NCBI GenBank assembly: GCA_021163445.1
Contig: JAGGWR010000183.1
Coordinates: 1-34,522 of the forward strand
Origin: Candidatus Tharpella aukensis
GTDB lineage: Bacteria > Desulfobacterota > Anaeroferrophillalia > Anaeroferrophillales > Tharpellaceae
Reading direction: 5' to 3'
Length of the DNA stretch: 34,522 nucleotides
A program made the position numbers and the translations under genes. The notes beneath the pieces are model-generated. The model was given only the letters and a program-made list of their open reading frames with translations, ran no database searches and was not told the origin of the DNA. Every line of letters begins with the position of its first letter. Positions within the stretch are counted from its first letter, which is position 1. Shown here in pieces: positions 9,836-14,487 of this stretch.

Positions 9836-9860
9836 ATGTTTAGAGTTGATAGATATTTGC

Positions 9861-9942
9861 TGAAAAAGCCACTCCCGCCGGAAGACGGGGTCGGAAAGCC
9901 ACGGGTCTTGTCACTAACATCATAAAAGACAGCCGGGTTGCC
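9861..9942 (+). ncRNA. GEMM-I cyclic-dinucleotide riboswitch aptamer (c-di-GMP-I class)
   Basis: The sequence follows the GEMM-I core. It has GCCACTCCCG with a GGAA tetraloop hairpin (CCCGCC GGAA GACGGG), the junction GGAAAGCCACGGGTCT (consensus CGCAAAGCCACGGG), a variable stem loop, and the 3' strand AGACAGCCGGGTTGCC, which matches the Geobacter-type consensus. The usual C before AAAGCC is G here, and the base it would face on the 5' side appears changed from G to C, which keeps the pair. Ligands of this class are c-di-GMP or, in a subset, cGAMP; a G at the presumed specificity position favours c-di-GMP, at low confidence. The 3' strand is shared with the following terminator. Confidence 0.85.
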
Positions 9943-9976
9943 TTTTTTAAAAGGGTGAACCGGCTGTCTTTTTTTT
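9924..9976 (+). terminator. Riboswitch-controlled intrinsic terminator
   Basis: AGACAGCCGGGTT (9927-9939) pairs with GAACCGGCTGTCT (9957-9969), followed by an unbroken T run to 9976. The 5' arm is the 3' strand of the riboswitch aptamer, so ligand binding and terminator formation exclude each other. Ligand should turn transcription on. The loop is T/A-rich (cctttttt-aaaagg) and could form an inner stem. Confidence 0.85.
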
Positions 9977-10016
9977 GTGGTCGATAAGTTGCCCGCAAAC
10001 CAGCAGGAGGCAAATT

Positions 10017-11810
10017 ATGAGAAAGATATTATTAATTAATCTTTTCTTATTTCTAACACCCACCATTGCCTTTGCCATAAATATCAATATTCCTGACGAC
10101 CAACCAAATATCCAATCCGGAATAGATGCAGCAATTCACGGCGACACAATTCTAATTGCGGATGGTACTTATACGGGGAATGGCAACTACAATATTGACT
10201 TCAAGGGTAAAGCGATTACCGTAAAATCTGCAAATGGGCCGGAGAATTGCATTATCGACTGCCAACAACAGGGAAGAGGGTTTTGGTTTAAGAATGAAGA
10301 GACTGAAACTTCCGTTTTAGATGGGTTAACAATTAAGAATGGTTTTACGGGAGAAGACGGCGGCGGAGTGTATGCTGAAGGTTTCCTTTCCCCTTTAATA
10401 AAAAACTGTGTGTTCGAGAATAACAGTGCTGATAATGATGGTGGGGCTGTTTGTTATTATTCGTCGTCTTTTTCTTTTACCAATTGTACATTTACAGGCA
10501 ATAGTGCCTCTAATGAAGGAGGTGCTGTCTCTTCTCCTTCTTATCCTTCTTCTCCATCTTATTCTTCTTTTAGCGACTGCACCTTTATTGCCAATCATGC
10601 TTCTGCTGATGGTGGTGCTGTTTTTTCTGTTGATTCATCCTCTTCGTTTACTAATTGTACATTTACTGCCAATCAAACTTCTGATGATGGTGGTGCTGTT
10701 TTTTATTATGACTCACCTCCTTCTTTTAGCGACTGCACATTTACTGCTAATAGTGCAGTCGATGATGGTGGCGCTGTTTTTTCTTATTCTTCTACTTCAT
10801 TTACTAATTGCACATTTACAGGCAATCGTGCTTCTGGTGATGGTGGTGCGATTGATTCAGGTGCTCCTTCTTTAACCAATTGCAGGTTTACAGGCAATCA
10901 TGCTTCTGATGATGGTGGTGCTGTTTGTTTTGCACGTGACTCTTCTTCTTTTAGCAATTGTGTATTTACGAACAATAGTGCTTCTGATGTTGGCGGTGCC
11001 ATTTATTATCATACTTATTATGGTCATTATCATCCTTCTTATTCTTTTTCTAATTGCACGTTTACAGAAAATACTTCTAACCTTGGGGGGGCTATTTTTT
11101 CAAATGCTACTAATTCTTCTTCCTTTACTAACTGCACGTTTACAGGGAATACTTCTAATTTGGGGGGGGCTGTTTATTATCTTTATTCTTATGATTCCTC
11201 TTCTTCTACTTCTTCTTTCATCAATTGTTCTTTTACAATCAACGAAGCCACTGAGCAGGGTGGCACTATATGGTGTGACACCCCATTAGTTTCCAACGAT
11301 CCCATAATCCTCAAAAACTGCATTCTATGGAATAACACAGCCCCCGAAGGTTCTGAAATATACGAAAAAGAAAAACCTCTAGAAATCACCTATTCCAACA
11401 TACAAGGCGGCAACGTAGGGGATGGTAATATTGACGTTGATCCTGCATTTCTATCAAACAAAAACTTATATCTTAAACCATGGTCTCCATGCATTAACAC
11501 CGCAACCGACGACGGCGCCCCGGCTGACGACATCGACGGCTATTTGAGACCAATCGGAAATGGTTACGACATGGGAGCCTATGAATATCGTTACGACATT
11601 TTTGTGTGGGATGGTCTAACTTCAGACTGGGGTGATGCCAACAACTGGAACCTACACGAGATACCTCAAATATCAGATATAGTTGTACTCTCCTCACCAC
11701 AAGCCGTAGTTCCTGATTCTGTAATACAAGCTAACGATGCTGTAGCCGGAGAATTATATATCGAATCGGGGTGTTTGATGATTGCTCAAGGGAAATTGAC
11801 GATAGAATAG
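10017..11810 (+). CDS. Secreted beta-helix (PMP-like repeat) protein with choice-of-anchor Q region
   Basis: The start at 10017 is set by AGGAGG seven bases upstream. The 597-residue product begins with a signal peptide (MRKILLINLFLFLTPTIAFA). Residues ~25-110 open a right-handed parallel beta-helix (IQSGIDAAIHGDTILIADGTY). Then come about twelve repeats of the form (N/D)C-x-F-x-x-N...GGA(V/I), e.g. NCTFTGNSASNEGGAV, like the polymorphic outer-membrane protein repeats of Chlamydia. Low-complexity Ser/Tyr linkers separate them. Near residue 505 the motif DIDGYLRPIGNGYDMGAYEY marks a choice-of-anchor Q region. A final WDGLTSDWGDANNW segment follows, and the protein then ends without a recognisable sorting anchor. 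It is probably an adhesin or surface protein and is preceded by a second-messenger riboswitch. Confidence 0.87.
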   Translation: MRKILLINLFLFLTPTIAFAININIPDDQPNIQSGIDAAIHGDTILIADGTYTGNGNYNIDFKGKAITVKSANGPENCIIDCQQQGRGFWFKNEETETSVLDGLTIKNGFTGEDGGGVYAEGFLSPLIKNCVFENNSADNDGGAVCYYSSSFSFTNCTFTGNSASNEGGAVSSPSYPSSPSYSSFSDCTFIANHASADGGAVFSVDSSSSFTNCTFTANQTSDDGGAVFYYDSPPSFSDCTFTANSAVDDGGAVFSYSSTSFTNCTFTGNRASGDGGAIDSGAPSLTNCRFTGNHASDDGGAVCFARDSSSFSNCVFTNNSASDVGGAIYYHTYYGHYHPSYSFSNCTFTENTSNLGGAIFSNATNSSSFTNCTFTGNTSNLGGAVYYLYSYDSSSSTSSFINCSFTINEATEQGGTIWCDTPLVSNDPIILKNCILWNNTAPEGSEIYEKEKPLEITYSNIQGGNVGDGNIDVDPAFLSNKNLYLKPWSPCINTATDDGAPADDIDGYLRPIGNGYDMGAYEYRYDIFVWDGLTSDWGDANNWNLHEIPQISDIVVLSSPQAVVPDSVIQANDAVAGELYIESGCLMIAQGKLTIE

Positions 11811-11914
11811 GAGCGTTAGGGAGTTGATTGCTTTTACAATTGGTTTTGTCAAAAAAAACATAACTAAATATTCCCCTATTTCTTGAGCCTATCTTTGTGT
11901 AATGAACTTAACCT

Positions 11915-12067
11915 TGATGGCGTCGTAAAAAGTTCCGATATCCTGCGTTGTTGTGGTTCTCCCGACACTCGACATACTACATGTATGGTCTCGCGCCTGG
12001 AGAACCACAACATCTTGTCTATCGAAATTTTTACTTAGCCATCCTATTACTTTTTACGAGTTCATCA
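11915..12067 (+). repeat. 153-bp hairpin repeat (MITE/REP-like), copy B
   Basis: Nearly identical to copy A at 6321-6473, same orientation and length. The inner stem differs but still pairs: GTTGTGGTTCTCC with GGAGAACCACAAC. One position has changed from T-A to C-G on both arms. It lies about 100 bases after the beta-helix gene. Confidence 0.85.
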
Positions 12068-12271
12068 ACCTTGCTCATTGCAAGCCTCATAATCAGTGTC
12101 TTTATGACCCAGAGTCATCCGCACGGGCGTTTTTTTTGAGGGAAAATGAAAAATTCATCAACTTATCTTTTCCGATTTCAATCAGGCGGCTGAACATATC
12201 GATAAGATAAATAAGGAAGAGGTCTTGAGCCGGGTGGATGTAAGAAGAAGTTTTTCCCCAGGAGGGAGGGT
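12068..12271. other. Spacer with possible coding debris
   Basis: No complete gene. On the + strand a frame ending at a TAG near 12278 reads FSDFNQAAEHIDKINKEE, then VLSRVDVRRSF. It has coding-like composition but no start or recognised family. It may be a remnant, in keeping with the gene fragments on either side. Confidence 0.25.
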
Positions 12272-12427
12272 TCAATAGGCCCCGGAACTTACCAGCAGGG
12301 CACCGCTTAGGAGTGAGGTGGTACCGAAAGCCAGGATGACGGCGTTGATCGGCACAAAGTTGATGAAAAGTCCGGCTCGGGTGGCCCCGATAATACGGAT
12401 TACTTCATAGTACCAGATATCTTTCAT
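12272..12427 (-). pseudogene. Truncated copy of an EamA/DMT transporter gene
   Basis: The - strand encodes 51 residues: MKDIWYYEVIRIIGATRAG, LFINFVPINAVILAF, then GTTSLLSGALLVSSGAY and a stop. This matches the C-terminal part of the intact EamA transporter at 13570-14487 (WYYEAIRIIGATRAGLFINF, LLSGALLVSSGVY). About six residues between the last two helices (the FFLDEPLTI area) are replaced by GTT through an in-frame deletion, and the final ~13 residues are lost. The DNA is still very similar, so the duplication is fairly recent. It lacks most helices and is surely not a working transporter, although the reading frame has stayed open. Confidence 0.8.
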
Positions 12428-12433
12428 TTTTTT

Positions 12434-12463
12434 GCCCCCCGAGGGAAGTTCCCTTGGGGGGGC
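12434..12463 (-). terminator. Strong GC hairpin after the 73-residue membrane protein gene
   Basis: GCCCCCCGAGGGAA faces TTCCCTTGGGGGGGC, giving a stem of about 13 pairs with a tiny loop. It begins 17 bases after the stop of the small gene on the - strand. In that direction it is followed by A residues, not T, so it is more likely an RNA-protecting hairpin than a classical intrinsic terminator. Confidence 0.45.
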
Positions 12464-12479
12464 AGTCGTGTCAATTTGC

Positions 12480-12701
12480 TCAGTGTGTGGATTCAGTTGC
12501 AGGGGTCTTTGATGCTACTAATTCCTTAATGAATCCCATGATCAACATAAGAGCCGGAACCAGTTGGGAGACAACAACCAGCGCACAGACACCGACAAAG
12601 AGGCTGACGAGAATCCCGCTTTTGTAAACTACTGTACCTGCGGCAAATGCCGGATTGATAATTGCCAGAACCAAAAAGATTGTTGCGATAGCCGTTTTCA
12701 T
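12480..12701 (-). CDS. Small membrane protein, paralogue of the next gene
   Basis: A 73-residue protein of unrecognised family. AAGGAGA with an eight-base gap supports the start. It begins with a signal-like helix (MKTAIATIFLVLAIINPAFA, cut after AFA), then GTVVYKSGILVS, and a second long hydrophobic helix (LFVGVCALVVVSQLVPALML) ending in a charged tail (KELVASKTPATESTH). It shares layout and the (F/L)VPAL(I/M) motif with the 76-residue protein encoded just upstream, so the two arose by duplication and probably work as a pair. Mature size would be ~53 residues with one membrane helix. Roles such as a membrane-active peptide or complex subunit are open. Confidence 0.65.
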   Translation of the reverse strand: MKTAIATIFLVLAIINPAFAAGTVVYKSGILVSLFVGVCALVVVSQLVPALMLIMGFIKELVASKTPATESTH

Positions 12702-12778
12702 AATAAAGTCTCCTTTTTGTTTTTGCCCATTTAGGTAAATACCTTTGGTACTTCATCCCATCAGGCATAATTGTTTTT

Positions 12779-13009
12779 TTAGTTGTTTGTAACTTTCTCG
12801 TGGTTCCTTGCCTTTCCGAAAATACCCGCCATCATGGAGCCCAGCATTATCAGGGCGGGGACAAACTGTAAGGTAACGATAAGAGCCAAAAATCCAATAA
12901 ACAGCCAACCGATAAGGCCGAACTCACTACCCACGGCGCCGGTTGCGGCAAAAGCCGAATTTGCATACAGGACGGTCATCAGTGTGACGATACGTAATGT
13001 GTTCTTCAT
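12779..13009 (-). CDS. Small membrane protein, first of a paralogous pair
   Basis: A 76-residue protein of unrecognised family. The ATG at 13009 is preferred over a GTG at 13018 because GGAGG lies eight bases before the ATG and overlaps the GTG. It has an N-terminal signal-like segment (MKNTLRIVTLMTVLYANSAFA), then TGAVGSEFGLIG, a hydrophobic helix (WLFIGFLALIVTLQFVPALI) with Met/Gly-rich continuation, and a basic-acidic tail (KARNHEKVTNN). It is related to the 73-residue protein downstream (pattern F-x-G-x2-A-L-x-V-x2-Q-x-V-P-A-L). A promoter-like sequence lies 64 bases upstream, so the two probably form their own short operon. The gap between them is 77 bases. Confidence 0.65.
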   Translation of the reverse strand: MKNTLRIVTLMTVLYANSAFAATGAVGSEFGLIGWLFIGFLALIVTLQFVPALIMLGSMMAGIFGKARNHEKVTNN

Positions 13010-13072
13010 TTTTCTCACCTCCGTGCATCTCCAAAAGACTTTAATGCCTCTTGCATTACATATTCTTTATAC

Positions 13073-13101
13073 AGTCTACATGGTTGCATAGGACATGCCA
13101 A
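13073..13101 (-). promoter_or_regulatory. Candidate sigma-70 promoter for the small membrane protein pair
   Basis: On the - strand, TTGGCA (13101-13096) and TAGACT (13078-13073) are separated by exactly 17 bases. They match the sigma-70 consensus at 5 of 6 and 4 of 6 positions. The start codon at 13009 lies 64 bases downstream of the -10. Confidence 0.45.
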
Positions 13102-13401
13102 CGTGGTGTTAAATTCCATAATTATTGTGTAACATATTGAATTTACAGATTTTTATGTAATAATCGGGGGAAATATGATGCGTTTTATTTCACTTGGGTG
13201 TATAAATATATTATACATTATACCTGATAATCCGGGTCGCTGGAAGCTGTTGGATCTTCTAACCTCATGAAAATAAAGATTTATCCGCTATCTTTGGGGG
13301 GGTATGTGAAAAAAATACTTATCGTTTTCGCCATAAAATAACAGCGGACAGCGGCGGACTTTGCTTCCCTCATGGCGCAAATTTATATACATAAGTCTGT
13401 A
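13102..13401. other. AT-rich spacer, no gene seen
   Basis: About 300 bases with stops in all frames. There is an AT-rich block around 13200-13235 (tataaatatattatacattata). No terminator, RNA gene or recognisable remnant was found. Confidence 0.5.
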
Positions 13402-13569: not shown

Positions 13570-14487
13570 TTACTTTGTCAGGGTCGGTTGTTTGGTAGGC
13601 AGGTTGGTTAAATAGACTCCAGAACTTACCAGTAGGGCTCCGCTTAGGAGTGATATGGTGAGCGGTTCGTCGAGGAAAAAGAAAGCCAGAATGACGGCGC
13701 TGATCGGTACAAAGTTGATGAAAAGTCCGGCCCGAGTGGCTCCGATAATACGGATCGCTTCATAATACCAGACGAAGCCGACAACGGTTCCGAAAATGCC
13801 TAGATAGAAAAGAGCGGCCCAGTCGAGCCCGGAAAAAGAGAGGATTTGATTGAATAAACCTTCGGAAAAAGCTGGAAGCAGGAGCAGCAGGGTGCCGATC
13901 AGGGTCGATCCGGTAACCGCAACCAAGGGTGAAAGTTCTTTCATTACCGCTTTGCCGATAACTGAATAGCTGGCCCAGCTCAAAACACAGCCGAAGATAT
14001 AGATCTCTCCCAGCCCCAAACCACCACTGACAATTCCGTTAAAATCACCCCGTGAAATAACCACCAAAGCACCGCTGACTGAAATCGTGATGCCGATAAT
14101 TTTTAAGATGGTCAAGCGCTCTTTAAAAAACCAGGCCGAGAGCAGGCAGATGCAGATCGGATTTAAGGCGATAATCAGTGCAGCCCGACCCGCATCGATA
14201 ATTTTCAGGCCTTTAAAAAAGAGGATGTTGTAAGCGAAGACCCCGGTTAGTCCGAGGAGCAGAATAAAAGCAAATTGTTTGAGATTAATTTGGGGAATCT
14301 TTTTCTCACTTCTGATGGTTAAGAAAAAGAGCACCGTAAAAGCCAGGGTAAAACGTAAAAAGGCGGCCGAGGCGGGGCCGACATCGCGAACCACGATTTT
14401 GCCGGCGATAAAGGTGCCGCCCCAAAGAAAAGCGGTCAGGATGAGTTTTATGTAGGATGTTGTAATGGACGCGGGGGGATTTTCCAT
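13570..14487 (-). CDS. EamA/DMT-family transporter coupled to the aap operon
   Basis: A 305-residue inner-membrane protein with about ten hydrophobic segments in two EamA halves. Visible signatures are LTAFLWGGTFIAGKIV, GPASAAFLRFTLAF, the loop KERLTILKIIGI closing half one, and LSWASYSVIGKAV plus the end DEPLTISLLSGALLV in half two. DMT exporters of this type often expel amino acids or metabolites. Its ATG overlaps the stop of aapP (TAATG), so it is translationally coupled to the amino-acid importer; export of excess imported amino acid is a plausible inference. A truncated copy of its 3' part lies at 12272-12427. The C-terminal tail (LPTKQPTLTK) is normal. Confidence 0.9.
   Translation of the reverse strand: MENPPASITTSYIKLILTAFLWGGTFIAGKIVVRDVGPASAAFLRFTLAFTVLFFLTIRSEKKIPQINLKQFAFILLLGLTGVFAYNILFFKGLKIIDAGRAALIIALNPICICLLSAWFFKERLTILKIIGITISVSGALVVISRGDFNGIVSGGLGLGEIYIFGCVLSWASYSVIGKAVMKELSPLVAVTGSTLIGTLLLLLPAFSEGLFNQILSFSGLDWAALFYLGIFGTVVGFVWYYEAIRIIGATRAGLFINFVPISAVILAFFFLDEPLTISLLSGALLVSSGVYLTNLPTKQPTLTK

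Follow-up and report, generated by a model that had tools for sequence, protein, structure and literature searches.

In metal-reducing bacteria, Cbc complexes connect the quinone pool with extracellular electron transfer, yet little is known of how they are controlled or of all the parts they comprise. Among the described systems closest to the genes considered here is Cbc5 (cbcEDCBA), a menaquinol:ferricytochrome c oxidoreductase of Geobacter, which the available portions of the published accounts (PMC11434368, PMC7726332, PMC7894505) present as a complex of five subunits, with no small protein pair or receiver described. The window, by which we mean the whole 34,522-nucleotide stretch of the Candidatus Tharpella aukensis assembly analysed here, carries a pair of small genes, B and A, whose homologues stand at the head of operons resembling Cbc5. 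In G045, G082 and similar genomes, A is followed by genes for a 7-haem cytochrome, a cytochrome b561, a 12-haem cytochrome and a HAMP protein with two haem motifs, in agreement with the published parts, and the membrane protein is also present in G045. The lineage of the window differs in that a pentahaem cytochrome, an FeS protein and an NrfD-type protein take the place of the 7-haem plus cytochrome b module. The full Cbc5 gene set is present in G045 (L057), partial or NrfD-swapped in other relatives, and absent beside the window pair; the source genome has an NrfD-type Cbc5 variant on another contig, C147. The window pair is probably an orphan member of a paired small inner-membrane family that heads Cbc5-type operons in Geobacter-like and related Desulfobacterota, subject to the same control as that operon.

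Several other described systems share parts with these loci. In the window's lineage, the FeS and NrfD-type proteins best match HmcB and HmcC of the Hmc complex of Desulfovibrio (HmcA-F), although at 395.1 of 420 bits and 334.1 of 550 bits, respectively, both fall below the curated cut-offs. The Hmc locus includes HmcD, which is described as a small hydrophobic peptide, and the regulators rrf1/rrf2 (PMC10924467, in the portions available); those portions describe neither a pair nor a sigma-54 promoter of the kind found here. The c-type haem Cache sensors (sCache_heme; GSU0582-like chemotaxis sensors) have in common with the present loci a CXXCH motif in a periplasmic Cache-like domain, found here in a kinase and in a stand-alone protein, but here an additional CX4CH follows and the Pfam matches are weak. 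According to PMC12889525, haem-Cache proteins that stand alone are frequent in Desulfobacterota. In Geobacter sulfurreducens, electron-transfer genes are known to be controlled by sigma-54 (the RpoN regulon; PMC2725144); the main text of that paper does not name GSU0592-0596 or GSU0598, and its available portions do not describe the palindrome reported below. In two transcriptomes covered by the available text of PMC10599522, GSU0596 ("response receiver") and GSU0597 ("hypothetical") move together. The hypothetical genes GSU3409/3410 and GSU3489 change in the same direction there. GSU0596 and GSU0597 lie next in number to CbcA (GSU0594), and we infer from annotation and numbering that in G. 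sulfurreducens they are the receiver and B. Neither the pair nor its promoter or palindrome was described in the portions available of the largely open-access literature that we searched.

A conserved pair of small, constrained genes

Both genes lie on the minus strand, B at 12,779–13,009 (76 residues) and A at 12,480–12,701 (73 residues), 77 bases apart, and both are identified by open reading frame, homology and constraint. A preceding sequence-only reading had described two proteins of these lengths with a common layout and strong ribosome sites, and had assigned them to no known family, all of which is borne out here. In B, a lysine is followed by a hydrophobic signal-like N-terminal helix ending in AFA, a short linker, a hydrophobic helix containing QFVPAL and a charged tail; inspection of A shows the same arrangement, including the AFA end, with QLVPAL instead, the two sharing the motif Q-x-V-P-A-L in a single hydrophobic helix. 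They are 44% identical over 53 residues (E 3e-5). The ribosome-binding site of B (13,010–13,022, minus strand) reads GGAGGTGAGAAAA and is followed by ATG, while that of A (12,702–12,716, minus strand) has AGGAG upstream of its ATG, the reading there being AGGAGACTTTATT-ATG. Comparison of the window copies with homologues gave dN/dS values of 0.17–0.49 for A (eight homologues) and 0.14–0.34 for B (nine homologues); because of this range (0.14–0.49), A and B look translated and constrained, that is, like real genes under purifying selection.

AlphaFold models of the two proteins consist of helices only, one signal-like and one long in each, with pTM below 0.4: helices 2–21 and 32–74 in B (mean pLDDT 74.7, pTM 0.36) and helices 2–14, 16–20 and 29–64 in A (mean pLDDT 71.1, pTM 0.37). 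Neither protein matched a Pfam family even at E≤10, the best matches in NCBIfam and PHROG had E≥0.04, with those in NCBIfam far below cut-off, and a profile search of the PDB returned no known structure (best E 0.14, noise).

A profile search with the family recovered it from 29 of 297 genomes across the phylum, A alone as query from 15 of 59 relatives, and it is present in 41 of the 48 genomes belonging to the family of G297; named carriers are Geobacteraceae and other Desulfuromonadales, among them the cultured Geomobilimonas luticola, Pelotalea chapellei, Oryzomonas japonica and Geobacter argillaceus. Our first set comprised 65 loci from 30 genomes, with 123 members in 71 groups (neighbourhoods exclude G065 and G250). 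Among these groups, 49 are tandem and 22 solo, some of the solos lying near contig ends. The sequence-only reading had proposed a search for paired homologues and would have been contradicted by homologues that were always single and unrelated in context, or by untranslated genes; instead, the pairing is conserved in 49 of 71 groups and the genes are constrained. The best 80 of 153 confirmed stretches from named genomes gave 24 pairs, 46 singles and 14 groups near ends, a pair-to-solo ratio that is biased by a query led by solo-type A.

In the family tree, A and B form largely separate lineages. Apart from lineage f9, one supported set (98/92) takes in almost every second gene and half of the solos; its 50 rows are 35 second genes, 11 solos, 3 third genes and a single "first" gene, the last a mislabel at L046. 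Since second genes form one supported set outside f9, the split between A and B is old. The window copies of both genes cluster with the orphans and distal pairs found in the same genus. In two loci (L071 9,654–9,938; L073 7,764–8,015) a third small family member, in which the Q-x-x-P region reads HGIRA, follows A and precedes the 7-haem gene.

After A lies a stable GC-rich hairpin (12,433–12,464, minus strand; -24.7 kcal/mol, z -4.1). The strong hairpin reported earlier after the pair is therefore real, but on the coding strand it is followed by an A run and not a T run, and it was not among the results of a terminator scan of the window; an intrinsic terminator after A is accordingly not supported.

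Sigma-54 promoter and upstream palindrome

A sigma-54 (-24/-12) promoter, TTGGCATGTCCTATGCA, lies upstream of B at 13,085–13,101 (minus strand), with GG at -24, GC at -12 and 10 bases between them, and is kept in relatives. It scores 21 of 23.5, a value equalled by none of 200 first-order shuffles, and is the one exact match to TTGGCAYN5ATGCA in the whole window. The 17-base-spaced promoter claimed earlier (TTGGCA-17-TAGACT) did not hold up: it is one of four sigma-70-like matches where shuffles give 4.1, and its TTGGCA, read as a -35 box, coincides with the -24 box of TTGGCATGTCCTATGCA. A sigma-70 promoter before B was thus rejected, the match count being at shuffle level and the sigma-54 fit being conserved instead.

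To score this site across the family, the best fit to YTGGCACGN4TTGCW was taken from the 220 bp upstream of each family gene, with a threshold of at least 18 of 23.5. Sites reaching this threshold precede 68 of 70 first genes and 1 of 52 second genes in the 65 loci of the first set, where one of the 123 family genes had too little upstream sequence to be included. An overlapping reading frame had swapped the order at L046, and after correction by hand the counts become 69 of 70 and 0 of 52, with L077 as the sole miss. Sites were also found in 75 of 77 groups from the 80 named-genome loci (L189 had no family match, and 7 of 84 groups with less than 100 bp upstream were dropped), and in all 22 groups of 18 loci fetched afterwards from complete genomes, a few of which score just 18–18.5. 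These promoter counts, like the operon counts below, come from related genomes and are non-independent; control of the family by a sigma-54 promoter nevertheless appears well supported by the conservation of these sites.

Further upstream of the window pair is an inverted repeat, TGTATAATATATTTATACA (13,199–13,217, no strand assigned), of the form TGTATA-N7-TATACA, which is presumably the enhancer site of an activator. It starts about 115–116 bp upstream of the -24 box, and the motif would be expected 0.16 times in the window even allowing one mismatch. Among the 133 upstream regions with a site scoring at least 18 and 245 bp above it, 76 carry the palindrome at 11 or more of 12 positions, as against a mean of 0.5 after base shuffling. 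Its distances are discrete, clustering near 100–104, 113–117, 123–127, 204–205 and 210–217; strict 10.5-bp phasing is not supported, as phasing is weak and other periods fit equally. The palindrome followed after 82–112 bp by a -24/-12 element occurs at 16 places in 59 near genomes, 15 of them directly before a family gene and the other, in G020, 44 bp from a contig end. A stricter form of this combined signature has nine matches in 297 genomes, every one directly before a family member, and reversed control patterns gave no matches.

The palindrome is not common to all operons headed by the family. In seven held-out genomes that each have two clusters, the 7-haem/cytochrome b clusters carry the sigma-54 site without it (inverted-repeat scores of 7–9 of 12), and in a further held-out genome, G343, the only cluster found is of this type and scores 10. 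A single regulator for all family operons was therefore rejected; because those 7-haem/cytochrome b clusters of the two-cluster genomes have a sigma-54 site and lack the palindrome, more than one activator must exist.

Main operons and their regulators

In 25 of the 71 groups a cytochrome, FeS, NrfD or cytochrome b gene lies just downstream on the same strand, and 25 of the 30 genomes have exactly one such group; the remainder comprise 44 orphans and two groups that end at sequence ends. The usual operon head is B-receiver-A, which is followed by one of three gene sets. The first (G045, G082 and others) consists of genes for a 7-haem cytochrome and cytochrome b561, in many cases a 12-haem cytochrome, and both a haem-Cache and a membrane protein. 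The second, found in the genus and order of the window and in G113 and G167, encodes a pentahaem cytochrome, an FeS protein, NrfD, a haem-Cache protein and the membrane protein c2, with an additional 12-haem gene in G216; from its gene content it looks like Cbc5 with an Hmc/NrfD-like quinol module. The third, in lineage f9, combines a 9–11-haem cytochrome with cytochrome b, and here the receiver follows the pair. In seven of eight held-out genomes, clusters of both the first and the second type are present, side by side or apart and each with its own B-receiver-A, while in the eighth (G343) only the first type was found, with further pairs elsewhere. On sequence grounds, the association of the family with Cbc5-like respiration appears well supported. 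Four loci (L240, L245, L247 and L249, from G318, G325, G333 and G327, respectively) have two adjoining Cbc5-like clusters with B-receiver-A heads and activator genes between them; the NrfD-type cluster has the palindrome and the cytochrome b-type cluster does not.

Gly or Ser occupies the phospho-acceptor position of 22 of the 24 receivers outside f9, and the protein is therefore a pseudo-receiver in most lineages; in f9 the Asp is kept in all 13. At L051, L056, L075 and L090 the receiver reading frame enters A without a stop, which could be a natural fusion or an in-frame spacer; as A retains its own start codon, we treated these cases as read-through and not as receiver-A fusions.

Beside many main loci are genes for a response regulator (Response_reg plus Sigma54_activat) and a HAMP histidine kinase (HisKA/HATPase/HAMP). 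Both the kinase and the haem-Cache protein of the operon have CXXCH followed by CX4CH within 25–60 residues, the spacing limits of our search; 55 proteins have this combination, 29 of them with a kinase motif, some genomes being counted twice under two locus names. The operon at L041 (8,984–9,811 and 5,194–6,747) includes a gene for a protein that matches the haem sensor of the kinase but has no kinase part, with CXXCH, CX4CH, a transmembrane segment and a HAMP-like region, which is possibly CbcD.

An activator gene, identified with a regular expression that misses truncated genes, lies within 5 kb of 27 of the 89 groups with enough flank, where about 7% would be expected from 196 activators in about 29 Mb. 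Gene A and the kinase also co-occur across 23 near genomes (11 with both, 2 with A only, 1 with the kinase only, 9 with neither; Fisher p 6e-4). The three discordant genomes are 68–81% complete, and the kinase-only genome, G020, is the one with palindrome and promoter at a contig end. At the window pair the predicted activator site is present, with the activator gene beside main loci and on contig C147 of the source genome (G000), while near the pair itself there is no cytochrome, receiver or regulator gene.

Possible roles of the pair and its extra copies

If the window pair is an orphan copy under the control of a Cbc5-type operon, a kinase with periplasmic CXXCH and CX4CH motifs would, judging from its domains, sense redox state or a haem ligand. 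It would phosphorylate the adjacent NtrC-type sigma-54 activator; the domains of both are evident and their partnership is suggested by adjacency. The activator would then bind TGTATA-N7-TATACA and open the -24/-12 promoter, so that the orphan pairs, which have these sites in common with the main operon (B-receiver-A-cytochromes), would be co-induced with it. A and B would presumably be exported, lose the signal peptide and reside in the inner membrane as single kinked helices, N-out and C-in. There, produced in excess from several gene copies, they may act as accessory, assembly or scaffold proteins of the quinol-oxidising complex. We put this role forward tentatively, with somewhat less than even confidence; it fits best because the pair is constant over three quinol modules, has a single helix with Q-x-x-P and occurs in extra co-controlled copies. 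A fixed-stoichiometry subunit is a poor fit given that 44 of 71 groups are orphans. It is conceivable, if doubtful, that A and B are paired, exchangeable and so far overlooked membrane subunits of Cbc-type quinol-oxidising complexes, with one redox-sensing sigma-54 system firing the operon and several orphan copies. Were this true, the quinol module (cytochrome b with 7–11 haems, or pentahaem, FeS and NrfD) would be exchanged beside an unchanging A and B, and the cell would set adapter levels separately from those of the enzyme.

Connector peptides are known to bind and tune sensor kinases in the membrane, and A, B and the receiver could form a feedback device of this kind, in which A and B would attach to the haem sensor kinase and tune its activity while the orphans raise the gain. 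We regard this as unlikely: the kinases differ among pair-headed operons (GAF-type kinases lie nearby in f9), and a position as first genes of a cytochrome operon suits a component equally, even though a receiver-like protein stands between B and A (Gly or Ser at the phospho-acceptor in 22 of 24 Geobacter-type proteins, Asp in 13 of 13 from f9), the operon carries a kinase-less haem-Cache twin of the kinase sensor, and orphan copies share the promoter of the regulon. Alternatively, the proteins might act on the membrane itself as pores, holin-like proteins or stress peptides, and be linked to respiration through control only. The sequence-only reading had leaned in this direction with its suggestion of a two-component membrane peptide system, of which the related, conserved pair stands and the free-standing system does not, given the sigma-54 respiratory operon in relatives and the solos (22 of 71). 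Small size, a single helix with a conserved Q-x-x-P, and orphans and solos away from cytochromes are consistent with membrane action, but dN/dS of 0.14–0.49 and long-term conservation, one operon-linked group in each of 25 of 30 genomes, and the lack of any lysis, immunity or phage context make it quite improbable.

Filamentous phage coat proteins, with a signal peptide and one helix, have a layout resembling that of A and B, and five B loci in one genome have homologous flanks of roughly 0.3–1 kb, as might be expected of coat-like or mobile-element proteins whose pair moves as a unit and whose copies are parasitic. We consider this highly improbable, as the copies have no transposase or replication gene in common and the gene keeps its promoter and palindrome from copy to copy. 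A phage coat, plasmid or viral origin was rejected: A had no matches among phage records and viral contigs, B had none among plasmid records, and PHROG searches with both remained at noise level (E≥0.39). The preferred reading, an orphan of a family heading Cbc5-type operons, names a testable part that was missing, namely two small membrane proteins and a receiver encoded where the operon begins, and extra copies scattered over the genome have the same kind of promoter. Activation of Cbc5 and its accessory proteins thereby become directly testable in cultured relatives of Geobacter.

The source genome has four loci with A and five with B. Contig C147 (6.6 kb) carries FeS, NrfD, haem-Cache, c2, kinase and a cut-off activator gene; because it starts at FeS, the main pair is absent from the assembly and the promoter of the main operon is unreadable. 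The genome gave only weak matches for a pentahaem gene. On C147 the kinase directly follows c2, a place occupied by a second pair in G007, G010 and G004, so that in the source genome the distal pair has apparently moved out of the operon. Orphans, including the window copy, group in the tree with distal pairs of the type seen in those three genomes, and the orphan on C89 still has a receiver between B and A.

Around the window pair, direct repeats (12,260–12,417 and 13,597–13,772; 81–90% identical) flank both genes, the former repeating, in decayed form, the 3′ end of an EamA-like gene (13,570–14,487) that lies across the pair from it, as if the pair sat inside a local duplication. A hairpin element with nested inverted repeats (11,914–12,068), part of which matches C214 (93% over 44 bp), could be a dispersed repeat. 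Directly before a gene (9,975–11,810) for a 611-residue, repeat-rich secreted protein with the look of a right-handed beta-helix lies a c-di-GMP-I riboswitch (Rfam RF03167, 63.5 bits; 9,859–9,946). A link of the pair with adjoining secreted repeat proteins was rejected because the neighbours of orphan copies vary among loci. Elsewhere in the genome, the A proteins of C56 (L017 7,689–7,910) and C89 (L018 10,668–10,889) are identical and their DNA is 96% identical over 390 bp at A, while B and the upstream region differ (75%), which suggests recent gene conversion.
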